Below the pieces are notes generated by a model. The model searched no databases. It saw nothing but the letters and a program-made list of their open reading frames with translations, and was not told the DNA's origin. A program made the translations under genes and the position numbers. This document shows, piece by piece, positions 6,745 to 59,413 of a stretch of DNA of 64,000 nucleotides. This stretch comes from Candidatus Sulfotelmatobacter sp. (lineage in GTDB: Bacteria > Vulcanimicrobiota > Vulcanimicrobiia > Vulcanimicrobiales > Vulcanimicrobiaceae), in contig DATJRY010000015.1 in assembly GCA_035504415.1 (NCBI GenBank), forward strand, positions 1 through 64,000, in the 5' to 3' direction. The first letter of the stretch is position 1; every line of letters begins with the position of its first letter.

Positions 6745-8961
6745 CTAGTCGCCCAGGCTGGTCCCGTGGAGCTGGATCCCGCCGGTACGAGCGCCGTCGA
6801 GGTTCGCGCCGCTCAGGTCGCACCCGTCGAGGATCGCGCCGGTGAGGTCGGCGTTGGACAAGTTCGTGTGGGAAAGGTCGACACCGGTGAAGTGGACGCC
6901 GTTCAGTCGCGCGCCGGCGAGGTTCGCGCCGCGCAGGTCGACGCCGCTGATGACGATCCCGTGCAGGTCTTGACCGCGCAGGTCCATGCCGTGCAGATCG
7001 CAGCCCACGCAGCTGGCGACGACGTCGCGCAGGCTGGTGCCGCGCAAGCTCGTCCCCAGCAGCTCGACGCCGGTCAACGTGATGCCGTGCAGGTTGGCGT
7101 TGTCGAAGTTCGCACCGCGCAGCTCGACGCCGCTCAGCGTCGCGCCCTCGAGGTTGGCGCCGGTCAGGTCGGCGTCGCGCAGATCGACGCCGTTGAGGTT
7201 CACGTGCGCGAGGTTCGCGCCGCGCAAGTTGGCGCCGCGCAGGTCGTCGCCGGTGATGCTCAGACCGTGCAGGTCGACTCCTTGCAGGTTGGCCTGACGC
7301 AGGTCGCAGGCGGCACACGCCTGGATCAAGTCGCGCGACCAGTGCAGGTGCGCGGGGCGGTGCGCGTGCGCGTCGCCGTCCAGGTCGTCGTCGGCGACCT
7401 GCCGGGGCAGTCCCTTGAGCGACGCCGCGACTTCCTTGGACACGTCGTGCGCGACGCCGGCACCGACGCTGCGCGCGATCTGGGTGGCCAGGTGCGTGCT
7501 CCAGGCGACCGCGCCGGCCGCCTCGGAGGCGGGCGTGGCGACCGTGCGCGCGGTCTCGGCCGCCACGCGCGCGCTGTTCGCGGCGACGTGCGAGGCGGCT
7601 GCCGCGGCGTGCTCCTTGGCGCGCAGCTGCGCCGCAGCCGCTTGCGCCTGGGCGGTGGCGGAGGCCATCGTGTCGGCCTTCGCGTCGAGCGGCGTGCTCG
7701 GCTCGCGTTCGACGATGTAGACGTGCTTGGTGATGACGCGCGGCGTCGCGACGGCGAGCGGGGCGAGCGACGCGGTGACGCGCGCGGGGGCCGGCGTGTA
7801 CGCCGTCATCGGCGCGGTCATGTCGCCGGTCGGTGCCGGCGGCAGCTCCACGGCGGGGGCGGCCGTCGCGACCAGCGCGACCGCGGCGCAGCCGGCGATG
7901 GCCATGCCCAGCGCGGTGGCCGGCGAGCGGTGCAGACGCGCGCGATTCTTGTCGAGCAGCTGCTCGATGCGCACGCTGATCTGCTTACGCGTCAGCAAGG
8001 CACCCGGCGCGACGACGGCGTGCTCGGGCATGCGCATCTCGCGCGCCAGCTTCCACAGCGAGGTCGCGTATTGGTGCGCGGCGCCGGTGCGATCGACCAC
8101 GGCGTCGTCCGAGGCGATCTCGCGCTCGAGCGCGATGCGGCGGCCGACCAGCCACACGATCGGGTTGAACCAGAAGATGCGCTCGATCGTGCGCTGGACC
8201 AGATTCGTCCAGTCGTCGTAGCGGCGCAAGTGCGCGTGCTCGTGCAGGATCAGCTGCTCGATCGCGGCCAGACCGTCGGCCGTCGCGAGCTCGGTCGGGA
8301 TCAAGATGACGGGGCGGCGGAAACCGATCGCCACCGGTGTCTCCGTCTCGTACGAGAGGCGCAGGTAGATCTCGCGGCCGGGGCCGATCTCGGTCAACCA
8401 CGGCAGCTCTTCGGCCAGCGGGCTGTCGAGCGGGCTCGAGCGGCGCTTGAGGCCGCGCACGCGCTGGACGCTGAACAGCAAGCCGCCCAGTCCGATCGCC
8501 GCGCCGATCAGCCACACCGCGACGACGCCCAGCGCGACGTCGCGCGAGAGCATCGGGACGCTGTCGGCGATCGCGACGCGCACGTCGTGCAGCCGCTCGA
8601 CCGGGGTGGACGCGATGCCGGGCGCCGGCGCGACGGCGCGCGTGTGCGCGGCGGGCGCGCCGTGCGCGGCGCCGCGGGTGCGATCGGCCGCCGCCCGCTC
8701 GTCGCGCGTCGGCGGCGGCACCGACCAGCTGCCGGCGGGAGCGGTGTGCGCGACGTGCGTGCTATGGAGGAGCGAGGTCGCGATGCCGAGCACGGGCATC
8801 GCGCCGGTCGCGACCAGAGCGATCGTCCACAGCAGGTGCCGGGTCGCGGCGGTCAGAGCCAGCGTTCGCGTCGCCACGAACACGCAGGCCGCCAAGATCG
8901 CACCGAGGACGACGCTCGCGACGACCGCGTACAACGCGACGCCGACGATCGCCTCGAGCAT
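6745..8961 (-). CDS. M56 (BlaR1/MecR1-like) membrane protease with C-terminal pentapeptide repeats
   Basis: The product has 738 residues. The N-terminal half is a BlaR1-type metalloprotease: membrane segments near 5-30, 40-65, 143-165 and 348-370, zinc motif HEHAH at 240-244, and EIASDDAVVD at 281-290 as the second zinc-ligand region. In known systems the protease, once its sensor domain is engaged, leads to destruction of the BlaI repressor. Instead of a penicillin-binding sensor, the C-terminus has an Ala-rich helical stretch (425-515), a His-rich segment (531-540) and about 180 residues of pentapeptide repeats (550-735) with two CxxC motifs (CAAC, CVGC). It starts 1 base after the blaI stop. 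The inferred role is an inducible sensor whose extracytoplasmic part is a pentapeptide helix; the ligand is unknown. Confidence 0.9.
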   Translation of the reverse strand: MLEAIVGVALYAVVASVVLGAILAACVFVATRTLALTAATRHLLWTIALVATGAMPVLGIATSLLHSTHVAHTAPAGSWSVPPPTRDERAAADRTRGAAHGAPAAHTRAVAPAPGIASTPVERLHDVRVAIADSVPMLSRDVALGVVAVWLIGAAIGLGGLLFSVQRVRGLKRRSSPLDSPLAEELPWLTEIGPGREIYLRLSYETETPVAIGFRRPVILIPTELATADGLAAIEQLILHEHAHLRRYDDWTNLVQRTIERIFWFNPIVWLVGRRIALEREIASDDAVVDRTGAAHQYATSLWKLAREMRMPEHAVVAPGALLTRKQISVRIEQLLDKNRARLHRSPATALGMAIAGCAAVALVATAAPAVELPPAPTGDMTAPMTAYTPAPARVTASLAPLAVATPRVITKHVYIVEREPSTPLDAKADTMASATAQAQAAAAQLRAKEHAAAAASHVAANSARVAAETARTVATPASEAAGAVAWSTHLATQIARSVGAGVAHDVSKEVAASLKGLPRQVADDDLDGDAHAHRPAHLHWSRDLIQACAACDLRQANLQGVDLHGLSITGDDLRGANLRGANLAHVNLNGVDLRDADLTGANLEGATLSGVELRGANFDNANLHGITLTGVELLGTSLRGTSLRDVVASCVGCDLHGMDLRGQDLHGIVISGVDLRGANLAGARLNGVHFTGVDLSHTNLSNADLTGAILDGCDLSGANLDGARTGGIQLHGTSLGD

Positions 8962-9421: not shown

Positions 9422-9967
9422 TCAGGCCGCCGAGAGGGCGGCCGGGCGGCGGGCGGTGGCCCAGCCGGTCATCGCCGCGCGCGGACCCTCGCCGTGGTCG
9501 CGCGCGGCAGCCGCCAGCTGGCGGTGCGTCAGCGCCGGGCCGTCGAGCGGAGCCAGGGCGACGTCGTCCAGGTCGGCGCGGACGGCCAGCGGCTCGAACA
9601 CCGGCTCGCCGTTCAGCAGCGCGGCATGCCGGCCGTCCAGCTGCAGCTCGACCACCGGGATCCCGGCGTCCGCGGCGGCCAGGCCGGCCGCGCGGGGCGC
9701 GTTCGGTCCGACCAGCAGCACCCGGGCCTTGCTCTCACGCAGCGCGGCGCCGATGCGCTCGGCGCCGAGCGGCACGTAGGCGAACCCGGCCGTCGCCACG
9801 CCCAGCAGCGCCGCCAGCGCCGGCTCGTCGTCCGCGAGCAGGGCCGCGACCCGGTCGCCCGGGCGCAAGCCGCGCGTGACCAGCGCGGCGCCGACCGCGT
9901 CGGCGGCGTTGCACAGCGGCAAGTCGTCACCGTGGCAGAAGAGGTCGGCCAGCGTGGGCGGGAGCAT
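9422..9967 (-). CDS. Truncated AMP-binding (acyl-CoA synthetase-like) protein
   Basis: The product has 181 residues from the ATG at 9967. It matches the first subdomain of ANL-superfamily adenylating enzymes: ALVTRGLRPGDRVAALLADD, then a stretch typical of the region before the adenylate-binding loop. The P-loop itself (usually YTSGTTGxPKG) is missing, and the sequence jumps from DLDDVALAPLDGP to ALTHRQLAAAARDHG, which normally follows that loop. The whole C-terminal catalytic half is also absent. It is likely non-catalytic, either a relic or a repurposed fragment. Its start carries GGGCCCC directly before the ATG, as at two other genes in the window. Confidence 0.6.
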   Translation of the reverse strand: MLPPTLADLFCHGDDLPLCNAADAVGAALVTRGLRPGDRVAALLADDEPALAALLGVATAGFAYVPLGAERIGAALRESKARVLLVGPNAPRAAGLAAADAGIPVVELQLDGRHAALLNGEPVFEPLAVRADLDDVALAPLDGPALTHRQLAAAARDHGEGPRAAMTGWATARRPAALSAA

Positions 9968-10024
9968 GGGGCCCGTTTTTCCGCGAACCCTCCAAGCGAA
10001 ACCTTCGACCCGTCCAAAAGCGAC

Positions 10025-10050
10025 GGGCGGGTGCGCTGCCGCACCCGCCC
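10025..10050 (-). terminator. Terminator of the 10.1-11.4 kb binding-protein gene
   Basis: A perfect 11-base stem GGGCGGGTGCG/CGCACCCGCCC with a 4-base loop lies 24 bases after the stop codon. On the minus strand it is followed by GTCGCTTTTGG, a short T tract. Confidence 0.7.
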
Positions 10051-10073
10051 GGATCGCTGGTCGCAGCCGCCGG

Positions 10074-11411
10074 CTAGACCTTGAGGGGCGTGTACCCCTC
10101 GCGCGTCGGCAGCTTCTCGCTGCTGATGACGGCCGCGGCCGCCGCGTTGTCCTTGTTCGCACACGACTCGGCCGCGAACTCGCCACCGACCCGGTCGGCG
10201 ATGGTGAAGAACTCGTTGGCCGCGCGGCGCTTCGCCTTGGGCACGATCACGCCGGCGTAGGTGCCCTGAATCGCCTGGTGATCGCATTTGCGGAAGTAGG
10301 TCGGCCCGGCCTTGCCGCCGTCGTAGTGGTAGTCTTCGAAGGCCTCGACGAGCTTCTCGGCGTCGGTCGTGCCGGCGTGCTCGATGCGATTGACGAGGTT
10401 CATGCCGGTCATCAAGCCCAGGTACTGGCGCCAGTCGACGTTCGCCGAACGGGTCTTGAGCGCGGCGTAGTACTTCGCCGCATCACCCCCGGCTTCCGGG
10501 CCCCACACGTACCCCCACAGCGATCCGACGATGTCGTCGACCGGTAATCCGACCGCGACGTCGTTGCCGCTCAGGATGCCGCCGAAGAGCATCTTCTTGT
10601 TGAGGCCGAGCGCGACGGCGTTCTTGACGCCGTTGATCGTGTCGGGTCCGTAATTGCAGAACACCAACGTGTCCGCGTTCGTGTTGCGCGCCTTCGTCAG
10701 GTACGATGAGTAGTCGGTTTGGCCGAGCGGATGCAAGTCGACGCCGGCGACCTCGCCACCGTGCGCGAGCAGGATTCGCTCGAGACGCGTGTGTGCGTCG
10801 GTGCCGAACGCGTAGTCCGCCACCAGGAAGTACCACTTCTTCCCGTGCTTGAGGAGCTCGGGGCCGACCGCGTTGGCCAGCATCGCGTTCGAGCAGGTCT
10901 GTCGGAACGTCGCGCGGTGCGCCTTCGGGCCGGTGATGTTCGTGTCGTGCGTGCCGATCGCGACGAAGAGGATGCCCTGCTCCTCGGCCAGCGCCGAGAC
11001 CGCCAGACCGACGGCGGAGCTGAGCCCGCCGCACAGCACGTCGACTTTCTCTTGCTGGATGAGTCGTTTGGCCTCGGTCTCGCCCGCCGCGGGCTTCGAC
11101 TGGTCGTCGCCGTCGATGGCGACGTACTGGATGCGACTATTCTTCTTGTTGGCTTGGTCGAGGGCGAGCTGTAAGCCGAGCTTCTGCGAGGCGGCCGCGT
11201 TGGCGTAGACGCCGGAGAAGCTGTCGACGTGGCCTATCTTGACGGTTACTCCACCACCGGCCGCGATGACGTCGCGAGGCGGTGCGAGTGGCGCCGCGCC
11301 GGCGATCCGCGTTTCGAGCAGGGGAAACCCGAGGGTTGCCGCGCCGGCGAGCCCGAGGGCGCCGGTACGGCGGAGGAACTCTTTGCGATCGACGGAGGCG
11401 TGATCGTCCAT
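10074..11411 (-). CDS. Tat-exported ABC-type substrate-binding protein (Peripla_BP_6/LivJ-like)
   Basis: The product has 445 residues. The N-terminus carries a twin-arginine signal (KEFLRRTGALGLAGAATLG). The mature part is a type I periplasmic binding fold of the branched-chain amino acid/amide/urea class: KIGHVDSFSGVYA, then AVGLAVSALAEEQGI and YDYAFG-like segments. It probably delivers an amino acid or amide to an ABC permease, but no permease genes adjoin it. The ribosome site AAGGAG precedes the ATG. It diverges from the WYL regulator at 11.5 kb, which may control it. Ligand unknown. Confidence 0.85.
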   Translation of the reverse strand: MDDHASVDRKEFLRRTGALGLAGAATLGFPLLETRIAGAAPLAPPRDVIAAGGGVTVKIGHVDSFSGVYANAAASQKLGLQLALDQANKKNSRIQYVAIDGDDQSKPAAGETEAKRLIQQEKVDVLCGGLSSAVGLAVSALAEEQGILFVAIGTHDTNITGPKAHRATFRQTCSNAMLANAVGPELLKHGKKWYFLVADYAFGTDAHTRLERILLAHGGEVAGVDLHPLGQTDYSSYLTKARNTNADTLVFCNYGPDTINGVKNAVALGLNKKMLFGGILSGNDVAVGLPVDDIVGSLWGYVWGPEAGGDAAKYYAALKTRSANVDWRQYLGLMTGMNLVNRIEHAGTTDAEKLVEAFEDYHYDGGKAGPTYFRKCDHQAIQGTYAGVIVPKAKRRAANEFFTIADRVGGEFAAESCANKDNAAAAAVISSEKLPTREGYTPLKV

Positions 11412-15030: not shown

Positions 15031-15738
15031 TCAACCGCCGAGATAGGCGGAGACGACGTCGCGGTGCGTGGCCAGCTCGGCGCCCGTGCCGGTGAGGACG
15101 ATGCGGCCGCGTTCCATGACGTACGCGCGGTCGGCGAGGGCGAGGGCGCGTCGGGCGTTCTGCTCGACCAGCAAGATCGAGGTGCCCCGCGCGCGTTCGG
15201 CGGCGATGATGGCGAAGATCTCGTCGACGAGTTTCGGGGCCAGGCCCATCGAGGGTTCGTCCAGCAGCAGGGCGCGCGGATTGATCGCCAGTGCGCGGGC
15301 GATGGCCAGCATCTGCTGTTCGCCGCCCGAGAGGGAGCCGGCCGGGACGTGCCGGCGCGTGCGCAGGATCGGGAAGCGGTCGAGCAGGCCCGGGATGCGC
15401 GCGTAGCCGGCTTGGCCGGCCGCGGCGGCGGCGACGTCCAGGTTTTCCTCGACCGTCATCTGGGCCAGCATGCGGCGGCCTTCGGGGACCAGCACCAGGC
15501 CGCGGCGGACCAGGACGTGGGACGGCGCTCGGGTGACGTCGACGCCGTTGAAGGTCACCGTCCCGGCGCGTTTGGGGATGATGCCGGCCAGCGACATCAG
15601 GAGCGTCGTCTTGCCGGCGCCGTTGGCGCCGACGATGGCGCACAGCGTGCCTTCCTCGAGCTCGACGGCGACGTCGTGAAGTACCTCGACGTTGCCGTAG
15701 CCGGCGCGCAGGCCGGTGACCCGCAGGAGCGCGCTCAT
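15031..15738 (-). CDS. livF: Branched-chain amino acid-type ABC transporter ATPase (LivF)
   Basis: The product has 235 residues, the normal LivF length. Walker A GANGAGKTT (37-45), signature LSGGEQQM, Walker B LLLDEPSMGLAP and the family-typical VRRGLVLVPEGRRM are present. It forms the cytoplasmic ATPase pair with LivG and powers uptake through LivH/LivM. Its start overlaps the livG stop by 4 bases. It is the last gene of the operon, and the small RNA units lie just beyond. Confidence 0.93.
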   Translation of the reverse strand: MSALLRVTGLRAGYGNVEVLHDVAVELEEGTLCAIVGANGAGKTTLLMSLAGIIPKRAGTVTFNGVDVTRAPSHVLVRRGLVLVPEGRRMLAQMTVEENLDVAAAAAGQAGYARIPGLLDRFPILRTRRHVPAGSLSGGEQQMLAIARALAINPRALLLDEPSMGLAPKLVDEIFAIIAAERARGTSILLVEQNARRALALADRAYVMERGRIVLTGTGAELATHRDVVSAYLGG

Positions 15739-16454
15739 GCCAGGTGCTCCGCGCCGGTGCCGAGGTAGGCCTCGATGACGATCGGGTCGCGGGCGATCTC
15801 GGCGGGGGTGCCGCGGGCGATGACTTCGCCGAAGTTCAGCACGACGACGGCGTCGCAGGCGGCGCGGACCAGCGGCATGTCGTGCTCGATCAGCAGCACG
15901 CCGATGCCGGTCGCGGCGATCGCGCGGATCGTCGCGACCAGCCGCGCCGTTTCGGAGGGGTTCATGCCGGCGGCCGGCTCGTCGAGCATGACGATGCGGG
16001 GCGCGGCGGCGAGGGCGCGCGCGATCTCGAGCCGGCGCTGGTCGCCGTAGGGGAGCGCGCTGGCGGTGGCGTCGAGATCGGTGGTGGTGACGCCGGCCCG
16101 CTCGAGCAGGGCCCGCATGGCCGGCTCGTCCAGGCGCCGGGAGCGCGCGTAGGCGCCGGCGGCGAGGTTGGCGCGCACGTCGAGCGCGCCGAACAGGCGG
16201 ATGTTCTGGTAGGTGCGCGCGATCCCGGCGCGCGCGACGCGATGCGGCGGTCGACCGTCGACGCGCGCGCCGTCGAGCGCGATCGTCCCGCGCGCGAGCG
16301 TCGCCAGACCGGTGGTCGCGTTGATCAGCGTCGTCTTGCCGGCGCCGTTGGGGCCGATGAGGCCCAGGACGCTGCCCGGTTCGACGACCAGCGAGACGCC
16401 GTCGAGCGCGTGCACGCCGCCGTAGTTGACGGCGACGTCGTCGAGCACCAGCAT
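15735..16454 (-). CDS. livG: Branched-chain amino acid-type ABC transporter ATPase (LivG)
   Basis: The product has 239 residues. Walker A GPNGAGKTT, the LivG-specific RTYQNIRLFG, the signature region LPYGDQRRLEIARAL and Walker B IVMLDEPAAGMNP are all clear. The start ATG shares one base with the livM stop (TGATG). It is the second ATPase of the transporter. Confidence 0.93.
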   Translation of the reverse strand: MLVLDDVAVNYGGVHALDGVSLVVEPGSVLGLIGPNGAGKTTLINATTGLATLARGTIALDGARVDGRPPHRVARAGIARTYQNIRLFGALDVRANLAAGAYARSRRLDEPAMRALLERAGVTTTDLDATASALPYGDQRRLEIARALAAAPRIVMLDEPAAGMNPSETARLVATIRAIAATGIGVLLIEHDMPLVRAACDAVVVLNFGEVIARGTPAEIARDPIVIEAYLGTGAEHLA

Positions 16455-17320
16455 CAGGCGCGCGTCTCCGCGGGGCGCGGCGCGCGCGGGCGGCCGCGCC
16501 AGAACGAGGACAGGCCGCCGGGGGCGAACAGGATCACGGCCAGCAGGATGATGCCGTTGGTGACGTCGCGATAGTCGTGCAAGAAGCGGATCGCTTCGGG
16601 CAAGATCGAGAGCAGCGCGGCGCCGAGCACGGCGCCCAGCGGGCTCGTCACGCCGCCGATCACGCACCACACCAGGATCTGCTCCATGCGGCCGAAGCCG
16701 AAGTCGCTGGGGGCGATGAAGAAGGAGGAGTGCGCGTAGAGCGCGCCGCCCAGCCCCGCGATCGCGCCGCCGAGCGCGAGCGAGAGCAGGCGCACGCGGC
16801 CGACGTCGACGCCCACGCCGCGCGCCGCATACTCGTCCTCGCGCGTCAACGCGACGGCCAGCGCGAACTTCGTGCGCGAGAGCAGCCACAGCGCCAGCGC
16901 GACCAGGATCAGCGCGCCGTAGATGACCGGCGTGGTCGCGTCGCTGGGAATGCTGCTCAGGCCCTGGCCGCCGCCGGTGAGGTCTTGCAAGTTGTTGGCG
17001 AACACGCGCACGATCTCGCCGAAACCGATGGTCGCGATCGCGAGGAAGATGCCGCGCAGCCGGCTGACGGGCAGCGCCAACAGCGCCGCGACCACCGACG
17101 AGACGATCATCGCCGCCAGGATCGAGGCGATCAGCGGCCAGTGCGCGTTCAGCGCGAGGATCGCGGAGACGTAGGCGGCGATGCCCATGAAGGCCGCCTG
17201 GGCCAGCGCCAGCTGCCCGGCTTGCAGCGATACCGACAGCGAGAGCGCCAGGATCGCGTTGACGCCGATCTGATCGATCAGCTGCGAGTGCTTGGCGTAG
17301 AAGTCGGCGAGAAAGGTCAC
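16454..17320 (-). CDS. livM: Branched-chain amino acid-type ABC permease (LivM)
   Basis: The product has 288 residues from a GTG at 17320 that overlaps the livH stop by 4 bases. About eight membrane segments are visible, with the family motif LALAQAAFMGIAAYVSAIL and the cytoplasmic loop EDEYAARGVGVDVGRVRLLS that contacts the ATPases. It pairs with LivH to form the membrane channel. Confidence 0.92.
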   Translation of the reverse strand: MTFLADFYAKHSQLIDQIGVNAILALSLSVSLQAGQLALAQAAFMGIAAYVSAILALNAHWPLIASILAAMIVSSVVAALLALPVSRLRGIFLAIATIGFGEIVRVFANNLQDLTGGGQGLSSIPSDATTPVIYGALILVALALWLLSRTKFALAVALTREDEYAARGVGVDVGRVRLLSLALGGAIAGLGGALYAHSSFFIAPSDFGFGRMEQILVWCVIGGVTSPLGAVLGAALLSILPEAIRFLHDYRDVTNGIILLAVILFAPGGLSSFWRGRPRAPRPAETRA

Positions 17321-18198
17321 GCCTGGCGCAGCGAGCGGCGGCCGAAGATGCCGGCCGGACGGACGACGAGGATGAGGAACATGACGCCGAAGGTGATCGC
17401 GTCGCGCCACTCCGAGAGGCCGACGGCGGTCGAGGCGACCTCGACGGCGCCGATGATGAAGCCGCCGACGACCGCGCCGGTGATGCTGCCCATCCCGCCC
17501 AAGATGATGACGGCCAAGCCCTTGAGCTCGATCGGGCTGCCCATGTCCCAGGTCACGCTGTTGTACTGCAGGCCGAACAGCACGCCGGCGGCGCCGCCCA
17601 GCGCGGACGCGATGAAGAACGTCGCGGCGATGGTGCGCTCGAGGTGCACGCCCAGCAGCGCCGCCGCGGTGCGGTCCGCCGCGACGGCGCGGATGCTGCG
17701 GCCCAGCGGCGTCGCGCGCAGCATCCAGCTGAGCACCAGCATCAGCACGATCGCGAGCAGCAGAATCGTCACCTCGACCGCGGTGAAGGTCACTGGGCCG
17801 AGATGGATCGCCGGCGCGCTGTCGAGGCCGAGGTTGCTGAAGTGCTGCTCGTCGACGCCGTAGATGCCTTGCAGGATCGCGATGATGATGATCGCGACGC
17901 CGATCGAGGAGATCAGCGGCACCAGCGTCCCCGCGTTGCGCCGCCGCAGCGGCGCGAACGCGACCCGGTCGAGCAGGATCCCGATGATCCCCGCCATCGC
18001 CGCCGCCACCAGGAAGGCCAGCGGCAGCGGCATTCCCTTCGCGCACAGCGAGAGCGCCGCGAACGCCGCCGCCGTGAAGATCGCGGCATGCGCCAGATTC
18101 AAGATGTCGAGCACCCCGAACACAAGCGTGTATCCGACCGCAAACAACGCGTAGACGGCGCCCAAGAGCAAGCCGTTGAAGACTTGTTGAAAGATCAT
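17317..18198 (-). CDS. livH: Branched-chain amino acid-type ABC permease (LivH)
   Basis: The product has 293 residues, with the N-terminal motif GLLLGAVYALFAVGYTLVFG and the DILNLAHAAIF segment typical of LivH. Around eight membrane helices are visible, with the ATPase-contact loop RSIRAVAADRTAAALLGVHL. It follows the binding-protein gene after a 133-base gap holding a strong hairpin. Confidence 0.93.
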   Translation of the reverse strand: MIFQQVFNGLLLGAVYALFAVGYTLVFGVLDILNLAHAAIFTAAAFAALSLCAKGMPLPLAFLVAAAMAGIIGILLDRVAFAPLRRRNAGTLVPLISSIGVAIIIIAILQGIYGVDEQHFSNLGLDSAPAIHLGPVTFTAVEVTILLLAIVLMLVLSWMLRATPLGRSIRAVAADRTAAALLGVHLERTIAATFFIASALGGAAGVLFGLQYNSVTWDMGSPIELKGLAVIILGGMGSITGAVVGGFIIGAVEVASTAVGLSEWRDAITFGVMFLILVVRPAGIFGRRSLRQA

Positions 18199-18331: not shown

Positions 18332-19465
18332 CTAATGAAAGTACGTGAACCCGCCCTTGACGATTTCGAGGATGACCGGTGACGACTTCACGTCGCGGTT
18401 TTGGTCGAAGCCGATGGGCCCGAGGACGGTTTGGATCTCGCGCACGTTCTTGAGCGCGGCCAGCATCTCGTCTTTGGTCGTCGCGCCGTGGGCGACGAGA
18501 TACGCGACGACTTGCGCGCCGGCGTACGACTGCGCGGCGAACTGGTCGGGCGCCTTGCCGTACTTCGCGGTGTACTCCTTGACGAAGGCGATGTTCGAGG
18601 GATACTTGGCGTTGACGTACCACGCCGCGCCGACGACGCAGCCCTGCGCGGCCGGGCCAGCGACCGACTCCATGTCGGGCGAGTTGAGCCCGTTGCCGCC
18701 CATCAGGTGCGCCTTGATGCCGAGCTTGCCGGCCTGCTGGATGATCTTGGTCGCCTCGGGGAACAGACCGCCGATTGCGATCACGTCGGGATGCTTGGAC
18801 GAGATGCGCGTGAGCGCGGCCTGGAAGTCGGTGTCCTTCTGGTGGAACGTCTCGGTGTCGACGACGTCGACGCCGGCGGCCTTCAGCTCGCGGGCGAACA
18901 GGTCGCCGTCGGTCTTGGTGAAGGCGTTGTCGTCGCCGTAGATGACGGCGGCCGTCTTGTAGTGCCACTTCGCCAAGGTGCGTTTGACGGTGGTCGGGAT
19001 CACCTGCGACTCCGCCAGCGAGTCGCGGTAGATGCTGGCGCCGAGCGCGGTGACGCCTTCGGCGGTCGTCGACGTCCCCATAGCCGGGAAATTGGCGCGC
19101 GCCGCGAGCGGGAAGGCCTTGAACGCCTCGCCCGAGAGCGTGGGGCCGAGCACCATCGCGGTCGACCCGTCGGTGGTGAACTTCTGCATCAGGTTGACGA
19201 CCTGCGCGCCGTCGGTGGCGGCGTCCTGGACGTCGAAGGTGAGATCGGCGCCGCCGGCGTCGAGCTTGCCCGACTTGACGTCGTCGTTGGCCAGCTCGTA
19301 GGCGTTCTTCTGCGGCGTCCCGTAGACCGCAGCCGCGCCGGTGACGTCGGCGATGACGCCGACGTGGACCGTCTTGCCGGCCGCGGGGCCTTTGGCCGCG
19401 GCGACGGGCGCGACGAGCCCGGCGATCGCCACAAGGGCGAGCGCCGGCACCGTGAATCGTTTCAT
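18332..19465 (-). CDS. Branched-chain amino acid-type substrate-binding protein (LivJ-like)
   Basis: The product has 377 residues, with signal peptide [20 protein letters not shown] and cleavage near VAAA. The type I binding fold shows [30 protein letters not shown] and [14 protein letters not shown]. It should capture the ligand in the periplasm for LivHMGF. Its ATG overlaps the stop of the chemoreceptor-TRAP fusion by 4 bases (ATGA), so translation of the two is probably coupled. The ligand class (amino acid, amide, aromatic acid) cannot be fixed from sequence. Confidence 0.92.
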
Positions 19466-22164
19466 CGATGTTCTCCTGGAGACACGGGGGATTGGAGGGC
19501 GGCGTTCGCAGCCGTGTTCGGTGCTCCCTCGGCGAAGAGGGCGCGGCGCTCGCGTTCGAGCGCCTGGGTCGACTCGACCGAACGCAGGCTCTGTTCGCTG
19601 TGGTACTCGGTCAGCGCGGCCATCTCGTCGAAGTCGCCGCGCATCGCGAAGGCGCGCTGCGACTCGGTGGTGGCTTCGCGCTGCGCGTCGGCCAACGTCT
19701 CGATGACGTTGCCGGTGAACTCGTCGATGCGCGCCAAGGCCGCTTCGGCAGCCTCGGCCTGACGGGCGCTGCGCTCGGCTTGCACGACGCCGGCCGAGAT
19801 CGCCTCGGAAGCGCTGGCGCCGCGCGCACCGAGGTCGCCCAGCACCGTGCGCATCTGCTGCGTCGAGGCACGGGTCCGCTCGGCCAGCCGGCGCACCTCG
19901 CTGGCGACGACGTCGAAGCCCTTGCCGTGCTCGCCCGCGCGCGCGGCCTCGATCGCCGCGTTCAGCGCGAGCAGGTTGGTGCGGTCGGAGACCGATCGCA
20001 CCAGCGCGACGATCTCGCCGATCCGCTCCATCAGGCCCGCGAAGCGCCCTAGCGCGCCGCGCGAGGCCTGCGCGTTCTCGGCCAGCTCGCGCACCGCTTC
20101 GGCCAGCTCGCGCACGGTCTCGCGGGTGCGTTCGACGTCGTCCTGCGCGGTCGCGAAGCGGGTCAGTAGCGCGGTGAACCGCTCCGAGAGCGTGCGGCTC
20201 TCTTCGCTCATCTCCCCGGCCGTCTGCGCCAGCCGCCGCAGCGCCGGGGCTTGGTCGCGAGCCTGGTCGGTGGCGTTGCCGGCCGACGCGTGGAGTGCTT
20301 CGATCGCGCCGTCGATCGCGTCGACGATGTCTTGCATCGCGAACCGGTGGTGCTCGGCGCTGCGCTGCGCCGCGCTCTGCGCCGGCGGCGCGAAGTCCGT
20401 CAGATCGCCGCCCAGCAGCAAGTCGGTGACGGCGTCGGGGAAGATGCGGCCGATGCGCTCCCACACAAAGGTCGCCGAACCGACGAACGCCGAGCGCTCC
20501 TGCGGGTCGAGCTCGCGCACCTCCATCAGGGTGCGCAGCTCGGCCAGCGCATGGCGCTCCTCGTCCGCCGCGACCGTGCGATGCCAGGGGATGACCTCGG
20601 CCAGCGCGCCGTCGACGACGGCCCGGTCGGCGGGGCTCAAGCTCTCCAACGAGGCGGCGTTCGCGAGCACGATTTGCGTATTGTAGGCGTGCGCGGTCAA
20701 GGTCAGGTAACGCTGCACCTCGTGCATCTTGGTCCCCAAGATGTTGGGCAGCGGGTTCTCCTGCGCGTCGACGTCGCCGGACTGCAGCGCGGCGAAGACC
20801 TGGTCGAACGGGATGACTTTCGGCGAGGCGTGCAGGACGTGCATCAGCGCCAGGTAGACGACCGAGTCTTGGATGCGCACGCGCATTCCGCGCACGTCGT
20901 TCGGGTGCGCGACGGGGCGCACGCTGTTGGTGAAGTGGCGGATGCCGTTCTCGAAGTAGCCCATCCCGCGCAAGCCGAACGGCTCGAACGCGTGCAGCAC
21001 GTAGCGCCCGAGGTTGCCGTCGAGCACGCGGTGCGCCGACGGCGCGTCGGCGAACAGGAACGGCAAGTCGAAGATCTGCGCCAGCGGCAGCAGCGAGGAC
21101 GCGACATAGCAGGTGACGCTGGCGAAGTCCAGCTCGCCCGAGCGCACGCGCATCAGCGCCTCGAGCTCGGTGCCGCGGAACGGAATCTCCGGCTCGACCC
21201 GCAGTCCGCCGCCGCTGCGTTCGGCGACCAGCTCGGCGAAGCGCGCCCAGGCGCGCGTCGGCGGGTAGCCCGGCGGCAACAGCGTCGCGCAGCGCAGCGT
21301 GCGTACGTCGCTGCGGCCGCTGGGCGCCGTGCGCGACGCGTAGAGCATCTCGGCGCCGTAGTAGGCCAGCCGCTGCGTCGAGAACGCCGCCTCGAGCGCC
21401 GAACGGCCTTGCTCCGCCGCGGCGGCGGCGAGCTTCTCGGTCTCGCGACCGACCTCTCCGGCGCGCGTCGCGTGCGCGCGGCCTTCCTCGGCGGCCTCTT
21501 CGAGCGCCAGCGCGACGTCGCGCGCCAGTGCGGCGACCGCACCCAGGATCTCGGCCGCCAGACGCGCCGACGGCGCCGAGCGCGCGCTGCGCCGCGCCGC
21601 GTCGCGCACGGTCGCGATCGTCGTTTCGGCTTCGGTGCGAATGCGCGCCACCAGATCGCGAATCGCCGTGGTCGACTCGCCGGTCGTCTTCGCCAGCCGG
21701 CCGACCTCGCCGGCGACGACCGCGAAGCCCAGCCCGTGCTGGCCCGCGCGCGCCGCTTCGATCGCCGCGTTGAGCGCCAGCAGCTGCGTCTCGTCCGAGA
21801 CTTCCTCGACGAACTCGGTCATGGCGCCGATCTCGCCCATCAGCCGCCCGAAGTCGTCCATCGCGCCGGCCGTGCTCTCCGAGAGCGCGGCCAGCGCCAG
21901 CACGGAGTGCAGCAGGTCCTCGACGATGCGCAGCGAGGCGGCCAAGTCGTTGCCGGCGCGGCGCGCGTTGTCGCGGGTCGACTCCAGCCGCCCGGCGGCG
22001 GCGCGCGCTTCGATCGCCAGCGCGCTGGTGGCGTCGGCCAGCGCGGTCATCAGTGCGGTCTGGTCCTGCGCGGCGGCGGCGATCGACTCGGATGCGCGCC
22101 GCACCGCGTCGGCCGACGTCGCGACGGTGCGGGCGAACGACGCGAGCTGGGGCGTCTGAGTCAA
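19462..22164 (-). CDS. Soluble chemoreceptor with a TRAP-type (DctP) binding domain between two signalling domains
   Basis: The product has 900 residues with no membrane segment or signal peptide. Residues 1-260 form a chemoreceptor signalling coiled coil with its conserved tip ([20 protein letters not shown], near 128-147). Residues 287-585 match a TRAP transporter binding protein: [20 protein letters not shown], an arginine-bearing GMRVRIQDS and [11 protein letters not shown]. Residues 605-890 form a second signalling domain with tip [20 protein letters not shown] (731-750). The start is TTG at 22164, 8 bases after the stop of the serine hydrolase gene, with GAGGG as ribosome site. The gene overlaps the next binding-protein gene. 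The inferred role is a cytoplasmic ligand sensor feeding a CheA-CheW array; no che genes are in the window. Confidence 0.88.
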
Positions 22165-22171
22165 TCGACCC

Positions 22172-22954
22172 TCAGGAGGAGAGCAGCAGGGGCCGGAGCG
22201 TTCGCATGAACGCGCCGAAGCGCTGATCGTTCTCCTCTTCGCTCGCTAGTTCCGTGTAGACGACGACCACCCAGCGCGCTCCGGTGCGAAGGGTGAGGAT
22301 GCCCCCGTCGTGGGCGACGGCCGACGTGTCGCCGGTCTTGTGGGCGAACGCGTCCCCCGTTTCCAGGCCGCGCGAGAGGCGGACGTCCCACCACGAATGA
22401 GCTAGGATCGCCCGCAGCCGGCTCGCCTCGGGGACGCGGTCGGCGGCCAGCGCGGCGAACAGCGCGGCGGCCTCGGCGGCCGGGAAGCTGTTGCGGCCGG
22501 TCGCGGCCCGGTCGGTTAGCAGCGTCGGGCCGCCCGAGAGCTTGCGGCGGACGGCGACCCGCGGGAAGCCCAGCTCGTGAAGTGCCTGCGTCGCCCACTC
22601 GCGGTCGAGCCGGTCGATCAGGACGTTGGTGGCGACGTTGTCGGAGCGCTGGAGCATCAGGGTCACCAGCTCCTCGACCGTCAGGACGGCGCCGGGGACG
22701 GCCGGCGAGGGGGCGTCGTTGGCGGTCTGGTTGCTGCGCTCGACGGCGACCGGCGTGGTCCAGGCTAGGCGGCCGGCGGCGACCGCGGCGGCGGCGGCGA
22801 CCGCCAGCGGGACCTTGATCATCGAGGCCGGGTAGATCCAGCGGCCGTCGTCACGGCTCCAGGCCGGGCCGCCGGGCGCCAGGCCGCGGACGTGGATCGC
22901 GGCCGCGTCCAGGCCGGCCGCGGCCGCCAGGGCGGCCAGATCGGGCGGGCTCAT
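22172..22954 (-). CDS. Class A beta-lactamase-fold serine hydrolase
   Basis: The product has 260 residues from the ATG at 22954. The three active-site motifs of the penicillin-binding/beta-lactamase fold are present: SMIK (S44, K47), SDN (104-106) and KTGDTS (206-211). The omega-loop ExxLN that supplies the deacylating glutamate of true class A enzymes is not recognisable; that region reads [18 protein letters not shown]. No signal peptide is visible. It may therefore be an esterase or peptidase rather than a resistance enzyme. It heads the minus-strand cluster that continues into the chemoreceptor fusion. Confidence 0.8.
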
Positions 22955-22960
22955 GGGGCC

Positions 22961-23029
22961 GTAATAATGCGTGTGAGTACTTGCATGAATCCAATTCGTG
23001 CGGTACGCTGTTCGTGCAAGTACCCACAC
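22961..23029. promoter_or_regulatory. Divergent promoter region with an 18-base inverted repeat
   Basis: GTGTGAGTACTTGCATGA (22971-22988) and the complement of 23012-23029 match in 16 of 18 positions. Rightward, TTGCAT (22981-22986), 17 bases, TACGCT (23004-23009) would place the start inside the right arm. Leftward, TATTAC (22966-22961) lies 6 bases before the hydrolase ATG, so that message could be leaderless. A dimeric regulator could control both genes here. Confidence 0.55.
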
Positions 23030-23043
23030 GCACGCACCAACAT

Positions 23044-24042
23044 ATGATGAAGCAGCATCAAAGCTACGATCCCTATCGCTTGCAAGCCGACGCCGCCGAC
23101 GCACCTGCACAGGTCGCCGGGCTCGTCGACGCGCTCCTGGCCGCCGAGACCGATCGCCCGCGCCTGCGGCTTCTGCTCGGCGGCGACGCCCTCCCGGCCG
23201 AGACGATCGCGGGCCTGGTCACGGGCTTACGCCGCCTGCGCGAGTTCGGGGGCGCCATCGAAGTCCGCCCGGAGACCGCCGCCGTGCGCGACGCGCTGGC
23301 GCTGACCGGCCTCGAGCACGTCTTCGCGTTCCCGCTCGACCCCGACGACGCGCCGCGCCGGCACCGCTTCAACTTCGGCTTCGGCTCCCGGGTGGCGGCC
23401 GGTTTGTTCATCGCGGTCGTGACCGCGATCGGGTTCCCGGCCGGCGCCGCCGACGAGCAGCCGCCGACCGATCCGGCCACGATCCTGGCCAGGGTGGAAC
23501 AGCGCAATCCCACCCTGTCCTCGTACGAGGGCCGGCTGCACGTCGACGTCCACATGACCTCGTTCCCGTTCATCGGGACCCACCTGGACGCGACCACCTA
23601 CTACAAGCGCCCGGCCAACTACGAAGTGGTCTTCGACCGCGTCCCGGCGCTGGCCAAGGGCTTCGACAAGATGTTCACCGACATCGGCGACCCCGCCAGC
23701 TGGGAGCACCGGTTCGCCATCACCTACGTGGGCGAGCAACCGTTCCGCGGCCATGCGGACCTCGCGCTGCGGATGGTCCAGCGGGTCCGGGGGATGATCG
23801 ACCACGAGACCGTTCTGGTCGATCCCAACGCTTGGTCGATCGACTCGATCCGTTACGATTACTACAACGGCGGGCACATCACAATGACCCAGACGTTCCG
23901 CGACGTCGGTGGGTACTCCATGCTCGCCGAGCAGGACGCCGAGATCGCGATCCCTTATGCCCGTGCCCGCGCGCACGGCGTCTACTCCGACTACCGGACG
24001 AACGTCGCTCTTGACGATTCGGTCTTCACGAAGAAGCGCTGA
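23044..24042 (+). CDS. STAS-like / transmembrane / LolA-like three-part protein
   Basis: The product has 332 residues from ATG 23044. Residues 22-97 resemble a STAS (anti-sigma antagonist) fold: LRLLLGGDALPAETIAGLVT, then the closing LALTGLEHVFAFPLD. A single hydrophobic segment at 116-135 (VAAGLFIAVVTAIGFPAGAA) follows, then about 180 residues like LolA/outer-membrane lipoprotein-sorting proteins (ILARVEQRNPTLSSYEGRL, THLDATTYYKRPANYEVVF). This would place the STAS part in the cytoplasm and the lipid-carrier-like part in the periplasm. It ends by overlapping the TetR gene (TGATG). Both domain calls come from pattern recognition and are of moderate certainty. Confidence 0.65.
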   Translation: MMKQHQSYDPYRLQADAADAPAQVAGLVDALLAAETDRPRLRLLLGGDALPAETIAGLVTGLRRLREFGGAIEVRPETAAVRDALALTGLEHVFAFPLDPDDAPRRHRFNFGFGSRVAAGLFIAVVTAIGFPAGAADEQPPTDPATILARVEQRNPTLSSYEGRLHVDVHMTSFPFIGTHLDATTYYKRPANYEVVFDRVPALAKGFDKMFTDIGDPASWEHRFAITYVGEQPFRGHADLALRMVQRVRGMIDHETVLVDPNAWSIDSIRYDYYNGGHITMTQTFRDVGGYSMLAEQDAEIAIPYARARAHGVYSDYRTNVALDDSVFTKKR

Positions 24043-55812: not shown

Positions 55813-56486
55813 GCGTGCTGCCGGTCAAGATCGCGCCCTCGCTACTCTCGGCGGACTTCGCCGCGATCGCCGACCAGATTCGCATGGTCGAAGAGGCCGG
55901 TGCGAACGAGCTACACCTGGACTCGATGGACGGCCGCTTCGTCCCCAACCTGACCTGGGGGATGAAGATCGTCAAGGACCTGCGCCGGCTGACCGCGCTG
56001 CCGTTCGACTGTCACTTGATGATCGCCGAGCCCGAGCGCTACGTCGACGCGTTTCGCGACGCGGGCGCCGACGTCATCACCTTCCACTACGAGGCGACGC
56101 CGCACCAGCACCGGCTACTGCGCCACCTGCGCTCCATCGGCGCGAAGGCCGGCATCGCGATCAACCCCGGCACGCCGGCGGCGATGCTGATCGACCTGCT
56201 CGAGGAGATCGATCGCGTGCTGGTGATGAGCGTCAACCCCGGCTTCGGCGGTCAGACCTTCATCGAGCGCGCGCTCACGAAAGTCGCCGAGGTGCGCGAG
56301 CTGCTCGACGAGCGCAATCCGGCCTGTGAGATCGAGGTCGACGGCGGGATCGGTCTGGAGAACCTCGAGCGCGCGGTCCTGGCTGGCGCCAACGTGCTGG
56401 TCGCCGGCAACTCCGTGTTCGCCGCCCGCGACCCGCAAGCGACGCTGCGCGAGATGCGCGCCCGGATCGGCGCCGTCGGCCGCTAA
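55809..56486 (+). CDS. rpe: Ribulose-phosphate 3-epimerase
   Basis: The product has 225 residues from a GTG at 55809; another GTG two codons later is possible. Motifs [63 protein letters not shown] and [11 protein letters not shown] are complete. It links ribulose and xylulose 5-phosphates. It lies away from the pentose phosphate operon, coupled to the PASTA gene. Confidence 0.97.
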
Positions 56487-59413
56487 GGCGCGTTCTGCAG
56501 CTCGGCGCGGGTGGCCGGGACCTTGATCTTGCCCGCGATGATGTCGGCGCGCAGCGCGTCGACGGTGGCCAGCGTCTTGGCGCCGATGACGTCGCGCGTG
56601 TAGCGGAAGTCCGTCAAGCCGACCGCGTCGTCGGCGAGGCCGAGCGTCACGTGGCCGCCGTGCATGCTGTCTTGCGCCGCACCGTGACAGAGCCGCTCGA
56701 CCGCGACGTCGACGCGCTTGCGCACGCTGGTCAGCACCGTGCCGGGCGCCAGCGCGTCCTGATCGGAGTCGACGCCGATCGCCCAGCGCTTGCGGCTCTT
56801 CGCCTCGGCGATGACGCCGATGTTCGCGCTGCCGGCTGCCGCGAAGATGATGTCGTCGCCGCCCGCGTAGAGTTTCGCCGCGACGCGCTGGCCGGCCGGG
56901 ATGTCGTCGAACGAACCCGCGTACGCTTTGTCGATGACGATGCTCGGGTCGATGTGGCGCGCGCCCGCGGTGAAGCCCGCCTCGAAGCGCTCGATGACCG
57001 GGACGTCCATCCCGCCGATGAAGCCGATGTGGTGCGTGCGGCTGGTCGCCGCCGCGACCGCGCCGGCCAGATACGAGCCTTCGTTCTCGCGGAAGGTGAT
57101 CGACTCGACGTTCGGCGCGTCGACGACGCCGTCGACCAGCGCGAAGTGCGCGTCGGGCGAGGCCTTCGCGACGGCGGCCATCGCGTCGCTCATCAGGAAA
57201 CCGATCCCGACCACCAGTCGGTCGCCGTCGTGCGCCAGCGTGCTCAGGTCGGGCGCGTAGTCGGCGCCGCGATGCGCTTGCAGCGCGCGCGGCTGCACGC
57301 CGTCGAGCACGACGCAGCGGCCCAGCCCGGCGTAAGCGGCGTCGTTGAACGAGCGATCGCCCAGGCCGCCGACGTCGAGCACCATCCCCACGTGGGCGCC
57401 GGTCTGGGCGGTCGCGGTGCAGCCGGTCAGCGCCGCCGCCAGCGCGCCGGCCATCGCCGCGGCGCGCGAGACGCGGAAGCGCGCGACGATCTCGGCCAGC
57501 CGCGCCGAACGGGTGCGCACCTCGGCGGCGGTGTGCTCGAGCTGATCGCCGTGTCCGGCCAGCGTGCGCGCGGCGCTGGCGATCGCGTTGCTGGCGGTGG
57601 CCTGCGACTCGCTGGCGTCGCGCGAGTCGCCGACGCGGTCGGCGACCGCGGCGGTCGTCGTGCGCAGCTGGTCGGCGGCGGCCGCATTCTCCTCGACGAC
57701 GGCGGCGACGCCGTCGACGTCGTCGCGCAGCACGCGGATCGCGTCCTGCATCTGCACGGCTTGGCGGGCGACCGCGTCGGCGACGCGCTGCGCGTCGGCC
57801 ACGGCGTGCTCGATCGCCGCCAGCGCGGCGTCGGTGCGCGCGGCCGCCTCCTCGCCGCGCACGACCGCGACGTTGGTCGCTTCGACCGCGCCGACGACGC
57901 GATCGGTTCCCTGGCGCAGGTCGCGCAGGATGGTCGCGATCTCGCGCGTGCTGGCCGCCGAGCTCTCGGCCAACTTGCGGATCTCGTCGGCGACCACGGC
58001 GAAGCCGCGGCCGTGCTCGCCGGCGCGCGCCGCCTCGATGGCGGCGTTGAGCGCGAGCAGGTTCGTCTGGTCGGCGACGGTTTCGATCGCGACCAGGATC
58101 TCGCCGATGCGCTCGGAGCTGGCAGCCAGGTCGGCGATGACGCGCGCGCTCTCGGCACCGTGACTGCGGATCGCGGTCATGGTCTGGCCGGCCTCCGCGA
58201 CCGCGCGCGCACCGTCGGTGACCGAACCGGCGGCGACGCGGGCCGCGCCGGTCAACTGTTGGCCGACCGCGCCGAAGGCGTCGATCTGCTCGCCCAAGTC
58301 GCGCGTCGTCTGCGCGATCGAGGCGATGCGCGAGGATTGTTCGGCGGCGCCGCCCGCGATCTGGCTGGAGGAGCGCGAGAGCTCGGCGACCGCGATCTCG
58401 TTGGCGCGCGCGACCGTCTGGTGCAGGTCGGCGTTGACGGCCAGCACTTCGGTCGCCTGCGAGGTCTCGGCGACCGAACGCCGCACGTCGGCCGCGCTGG
58501 CGGCGACGCGGGTCGCGTCGCTGGCCAGCGCGCTGGCGTCGCCGGCGATCCCTTCGAGCGTGTCGCGCAAGCGCGCGGTCGTGCGCGAGAAGGTCTCGCC
58601 CAGCTCGCCCAGCGAGCGCGCCAGAACGTTGTACGTGCGCGAGAGCGAGGCGATCTCGTCGTCGCCCTCGCCGTCCAGCTCGGGGGCTTCGGCCGAGAAC
58701 GAGACGGTCAGGTCGCCGTCGGCGAGCGCCTCGAGCGCGCTCGCGAAGCGCGCCAGGTCGACGCGAACGGCTTCGCGCAGCGCCGCCACGACCGCGTCCA
58801 AGCGCCGCGAGAGACTGCGCACGAACAGCGGCGCGCCGATCAGCAGCAGCGCCAGCACGAGGATCGCCAGGATCAGCAGCGCCGCCTGCGAGAGGCTGCG
58901 CAGCTTCGCCGCGCGTGCGTCGTCGGCGGCGATGCGGGCGGCGACGTCGTCGTCGACGCCGCCGAGGAAGGCGGCCAGCGAATCGTAGATCGCGTCGCCG
59001 TGCTGCGTCGTACCGGGCGCCGGATGCGCGCCTTGCGCGATCCGCTGGTCGACCCACCGCTCGTACTCGTCGATGTAGGCTTGGGAGAGCTGCGCGATCG
59101 CGCGCAGCTGCGGCGGCCGGCCCGGCGCCTCGTCGTCGGCGACGAACCGGTGCAGCTCGGCGCGCGTCGCGTTCAGCTGCTCGCGCTCGGTCGCGTCGCC
59201 TTCGAGCGCATAGGCGTCGGCGTCACGCGCCTCGACGGCCAGCGCCGTGTTCAGGTGCGCGACGAGCTGACGCACCTCTTCGATGCGGGCGGTTTGCGCG
59301 CGCGTCGCCGACTCGGCCGCGCTCTGGACCAGGCCCACCACGGTGACCGCGGCGACGCTGGCGACGGCCGCGATGAGCAGCGCCGCGACGGCTGTCCGAA
59401 AGCGTACTCTCAA
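56483..59413 (-). CDS. Chemoreceptor fused to a BMP-type (PnrA-like) binding lipoprotein domain
   Basis: The product has 976 residues from a TTG at 59413. Membrane helix 1 (7-29), a helical periplasmic part (30-175), helix 2 (176-198), HAMP (200-265) and the signalling coiled coil with tip [20 protein letters not shown] (451-470) make a standard receptor. Then, with no stop, [16 protein letters not shown] (650-665) looks like a lipoprotein signal with lipobox LTGC, followed by a BMP/PnrA-like binding domain ([38 protein letters not shown]). The hydrophobic stretch could act as a third membrane helix placing the domain outside. Alternatively, Met654 could start a separate lipoprotein. Confidence 0.88.

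Follow-up and report, generated by a model that had tools for sequence, protein, structure and literature searches.

A predicted soluble chemoreceptor carrying a TRAP-type DctP domain between two signalling hairpins

The 64,000-nucleotide stretch of DNA analysed here (the window) contains a gene for a 900-residue chemoreceptor (19462..22164, minus strand) in which a DctP domain, known as the solute-binding component of TRAP transporters, is placed between two signalling hairpins within one intact frame, and homologues with the same domain order and the same start were found in related genomes. Judging from comparisons at the sequence level, we think it probable that this protein is a soluble chemoreceptor with a cytosolic TRAP-type sensor, the closure of which would alter a single-chain pair of hairpins and thereby act on CheA/CheW and the flagella. 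TRAP binding proteins are usually viewed as extracellular feeders of transporters, and a conserved lineage that keeps a DctP domain solely as an internal sensor would be an example of a transport part turned into a signalling part.

Architecture of the receptor

The receptor gene is read from a TTG start codon at 22164 to a TGA stop codon at 19462-19464, and a possible ribosome-binding site, GAGGG (22169..22173, minus strand), can be read in the sequence 4 bases before the TTG. Signalling hairpin 1 comprises residues about 4-270 (21355..22155, minus strand) and signalling hairpin 2 residues about 605-879 (19528..20352, minus strand), both of them recognised by the Pfam MCPsignal model, which matched the receptor with 1.9e-48 (165 bits) spread over two stretches; hairpin 1 also aligns gaplessly with hairpin 2. 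Two chemoreceptor tips, the regions of CheA/CheW contact, had been located in the preliminary description, and their positions proved to be as claimed: tip 1 lies at residues 128-147 (21724..21783, minus strand), with a 14-residue block that is invariant in 16 homologues, and tip 2 at residues 731-750 (19915..19974, minus strand), where the block is invariant in 16 homologues as well.

The DctP domain occupies residues 295-570 (20455..21282, minus strand). A full domain of this kind between the signalling halves had been claimed earlier, together with a call for a profile search, and this search gave a strong match (PF03480, 7e-63, 213 bits compared with a cut-off of 23.4), alongside NCBIfam dctP (209 bits, over the 175-bit cut-off) and the TRAP solute-binding proteins 4p47, 4xeq and 7bbr in the PDB. 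The N-terminus of the receptor is a hydrophilic signalling helix, and the same holds for all homologues, which start at about the same place, arguing against a signal peptide. The Kyte-Doolittle mean over 19 residues peaks at 1.61, within a charged helix of hairpin 1, making a membrane helix in the receptor very unlikely. The absence of both elements, as first described from the DNA, is thus borne out; the receptor seems to reside in the cytoplasm, and the idea of a soluble receptor using a cytoplasmic DctP domain as its sensor gains support.

Distribution and relatives

The receptor is present in 25 of the 99 genomes of the same bacterial family, belonging to 11 of its 38 genera, with identities of 51-79%. 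A full-length single frame of about 880-900 residues with the same domain order was found in 23 of these 25 carriers, and the two partial copies derive from fragmented assemblies, in which they are truncated at contig ends. It had been considered from the outset that homologues might turn out as separate genes and the continuous frame as an assembly or frame artefact that fuses them. This outcome did not occur: the artefact is excluded because the same order, start and length recur in related genomes, and with 23 independent assemblies each containing one full-length frame, its probability is negligible.

Outside its family, no receptor was detected among 149 genomes of the phylum, with the exception of a contig-edge fragment of a DctP fusion from a second family of the same order. 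Fifty genomes from other groups contained no MCP-DctP fusion, the one 794-aa candidate among them having two internal stops, and when GTDB contigs were searched with the family alignment, the matching loci that were inspected proved to be only separate MCP and DctP genes that are adjacent by chance. A search of viral contigs for the receptor found none. Likewise, no paper joining a DctP/TRAP domain with MCP signalling was retrieved from the literature searched, the coverage of which leaves out most subscription journals, and within that literature the preliminary statement that there is no established family with an MCP-DctP-MCP order holds.

Two related fusions are encoded in the window genome, namely a 596-aa MCP-DctP protein with a single N-terminal hairpin on contig C19 and a 495-aa MarR-DctP protein on contig C11 (L015:1411-2898). 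More MCP-DctP copies occur in the window's genus, and MarR-DctP is found both there and in one further genus. In a tree that contains few secreted DctP proteins and a long outgroup branch, every cytosolic fusion has its DctP domain in a common clade (99/96), from which the sampled secreted DctP proteins are separate. The relatives share the clade of their DctP domain with the window receptor, but where the latter has two hairpins, MarR-DctP has a transcription output and MCP-DctP only one hairpin, at the N-terminus. MarR-DctP may represent a new class of transport regulator. Two soluble tandem-MCP proteins (L041:310-2715 on contig C14 and L040:1-2679 on contig C19) were also noted, each with an unannotated C-terminal domain of about 150-200 residues.

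A proposed sensing role for the DctP domain

Each of the 23 carriers that belong to genera other than that of the window encodes no DctP protein besides the receptor. The TRAP permease DctM is absent from 14 of the 15 carriers tested outside this genus, the remaining one giving a marginal 22-bit match, and the window's genus itself contains ordinary TRAP proteins; the partner permease DctQM is not adjacent to the receptor gene. With one DctP protein and no DctM, most carriers have no TRAP transporter that the domain could supply, which leaves sensing, so the DctP domain in carriers without the permease would be a sensor and not a transporter part.

The missing transporter partner would also suit a DctP domain that has lost ligand binding and persists as a structural linker only. 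We regard this as highly improbable, since R430, E469 and N470 do not vary across 16 homologues drawn from distant genera, nor do many further DctP columns, and since the same kind of DctP domain is found in MarR regulators beside transport operons. R430 presumably corresponds to the carboxylate-binding arginine known from SiaP, and E469 and N470 are residues of the QENPL motif, so both the pocket arginine and this motif are retained in the receptor. The receptor hence shares the whole domain, the pocket arginine and the QENPL motif with TRAP solute-binding proteins such as TarP and SiaP, but differs from them in that it is apparently not secreted, is fused to signalling hairpins and mostly occurs without a TRAP permease; of the features that define a TRAP solute-binding protein, it has the domain score and lacks the signal peptide and the partner permease. 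Binding-protein domains are known in general to serve as cytosolic sensors (PMC9602780). Regulators of the LacI and LysR types likewise reuse a binding-protein fold in the cytosol, whereas the receptor employs a different binding-protein family and would have chemotaxis as its output.

Possible origin and pairing of the signalling hairpins

In five of the six homologues compared, hairpin 1 can be aligned with hairpin 2 over 267-270 residues without gaps, at 28-31% identity; in the sixth, the alignment has one gap of a single residue. In the hairpin tree, the two appear as sister clades (96/88), and the MCP-DctP hairpin joins them in a group separate from other receptors (100/99), while a grouping of hairpin 1 with MCP-DctP was not rejected in the AU test (p 0.475). 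The gapless alignment and the sister clades suggest that the two hairpins arose by duplication of one and that they associate as an intramolecular pseudo-dimer; in addition, equal hairpin length would keep both tips equally distant from the sensor, which suits pairing within one chain. AlphaFold, run twice on shallow alignments (pLDDT 45, pTM about 0.3), modelled long helices that turn at the tips but was uninformative on packing. We tentatively propose that the receptor is a single-chain pseudo-dimer that originated from duplication of the MCP-DctP hairpin and has one sensor per bundle, and that a TRAP domain entered the cytosol in a single capture event, after which it was redistributed between chemotaxis and transcription outputs.

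Chemoreceptors that have been well studied are all homodimers, and the one-hairpin MCP-DctP relatives presumably dimerise in this way, too. A conventional homodimer of the receptor, in which each hairpin pairs with its own counterpart in the partner chain to yield two bundles and two sensors, would leave the equal, gapless length of the hairpins unexplained, although shared ancestry alone could account for it, and such an assembly appears to us somewhat unlikely.

The nearest known double-signalling receptor is DosM (VC1403) of Vibrio cholerae, which is cytoplasmic, carries one signalling domain at either end of a rod and belongs to the F9 systems with a concatenated triple CheW (PMC7534058, PMC9321776). 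The window protein resembles DosM in being a cytoplasmic receptor, as predicted, with two signalling domains per chain. It differs in carrying a DctP sensor between its hairpins, and its genome encodes CheA and CheW only once each, which indicates that there is no F9 system in the window genome; with two signalling domains but a sensor and no triple CheW, the protein does not belong to the F9 class. The MCP-sensor-MCP order would be compatible with a double-ended rod, and equal hairpin lengths with two equal layers, so that an extended DosM-like rod could be envisaged, in which the tips lie on opposite sides and bridge two CheA/CheW layers and the DctP domain sits mid-rod. Nevertheless, we deem this arrangement unlikely: the triple CheW is missing, 98% of DosM homologues have no sensory domain (PMC9321776), and, in a tree that included no DosM sequence, hairpins 1 and 2 cluster together and with that of the one-hairpin MCP-DctP. 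If the single-chain pseudo-dimer is true, two hairpins per chain would let one ask how many sensors a bundle needs, and would open a route to how asymmetry is read, which is hard with homodimers, while a soluble receptor would be simpler to purify than membrane receptors.

Chemotaxis output

The one CheA and one CheW of the window genome are accompanied by flagellar switch-type domains nearby, the single CheW domains being located in separate frames, and flagellins are present as well. Flagellin and CheA/CheW were detected in all 12 carriers tested; in the small sample of three non-carriers, two have neither flagellin nor CheA/CheW and the third has CheW without flagellin. This co-occurrence fits a receptor of flagellar chemotaxis. 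Within the window's genus, one relative is without flagellin. TlpT of R. sphaeroides and TlpD of H. pylori are soluble receptors that signal via CheA/CheW, as proposed for the window receptor; soluble chemoreceptors of this type have other sensors and a single signalling domain.

The strict methylation consensus was found in only two of 16 receptor homologues, at differing places, compared with four of the five other receptors of the window genome that were tested. Measured against methyl-accepting chemotaxis proteins, the receptor thus has MCPsignal, the tips and CheA/CheW, but no consensus methylation sites. This lack of conservation is unusual for a receptor and counts against our reading of the protein, which may thus adapt by another route or not at all. 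A second receptor/binding-protein fusion of the window (56115-59057, minus strand; also L031:289-3294) combines a membrane chemoreceptor, bearing HAMP and MCPsignal, with a Bmp/PnrA-type binding domain (223 bits) in one continuous frame, and a lipoprotein-like LTGC motif lies where the two meet.

Genomic neighbourhood and putative ligand

A gene for a LivJ-like periplasmic binding protein (18332..19465, minus strand; Peripla_BP_6, 2e-46) shares a 4-base ATGA overlap with the receptor gene and is followed by genes for LivH-like (17317..18198, minus strand; BPD_transp_2, 1e-43) and LivM-like permeases (16454..17320, minus strand, start approximate; BPD_transp_2, 2e-37) and for LivG-like (15735..16460, minus strand, start approximate; ABC_tran and BCA_ABC_TP_C) and LivF-like ATPases (15031..15738, minus strand; ABC_tran, 2e-29). 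Upstream of the receptor gene lies that of a class A beta-lactamase-like protein (22172-23110). The overlap and the downstream LivHMGF genes reported at first are real, and the coupling of uptake and sensing derived from them stands for the window's genus but not as a general rule, as the receptor-Liv neighbourhood is kept only there (G000, G090) and is missing in the other 10 genera. In most genera, the receptor gene is located among housekeeping genes, for instance murI and an amidase gene (both named by eye). However, MarR-DctP adjoins Liv genes in all four genomes examined (loci L015 of the window genome, L072, L183 and L184), and Liv genes are found on both sides of the window genome's MCP-DctP, indicating that cytosolic DctP sensors and Liv transport are genuinely linked in some members of the family.

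The window genome's MCP-DctP also adjoins a hydroquinone 1,2-dioxygenase large subunit, a semialdehyde dehydrogenase-like protein and an iron alcohol dehydrogenase. In one genus (g12, L170-L174), the receptor gene is followed by a PAS-LuxR regulator and then by a benzoyl-CoA reductase-like operon, the genes of which resemble benzoyl-CoA reductase subunits C, A and D, Had and Oah, all under the equivalog cut-offs and thus by family resemblance only; most genera have no catabolic clue to the ligand beside the receptor. The aromatic-catabolism and Liv genes beside some members suggest that the ligand is a carboxylate, perhaps an aromatic one. A precedent is offered by TarP and CouP of R. palustris, the latter of which we take to be of the Liv type. 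These TRAP and ABC binding proteins are encoded at one locus and bind the same aromatic acids (PMC3610893), which, together with the catabolic neighbours, makes an aromatic carboxylate a reasonable guess.

In the picture that we consider probable, the DctP binding domain no longer carries an export signal and functions in the cytosol, where an imported carboxylate, at best guess an aromatic acid or a breakdown product, would close the two-lobed domain. As both of its ends join the signalling hairpins, closure would be expected to shift the packing of the latter. In the simplest case, the equal-length hairpins would pair within the chain to give a pseudo-dimer with one sensor per four-helix bundle, and the two neighbouring tips would act on CheA/CheW and hence on the flagella.

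Elsewhere in the window, a BlaR1-like sensor fused to pentapeptide repeats (6745-8961, minus strand) lies beside a BlaI-like regulator (9613-10287, minus strand), the latter recognised by eye. Finally, a proteobacterial genome (L194) encodes a 732-aa DctP-LivJ fusion behind one N-terminal hydrophobic helix, likewise identified by eye.
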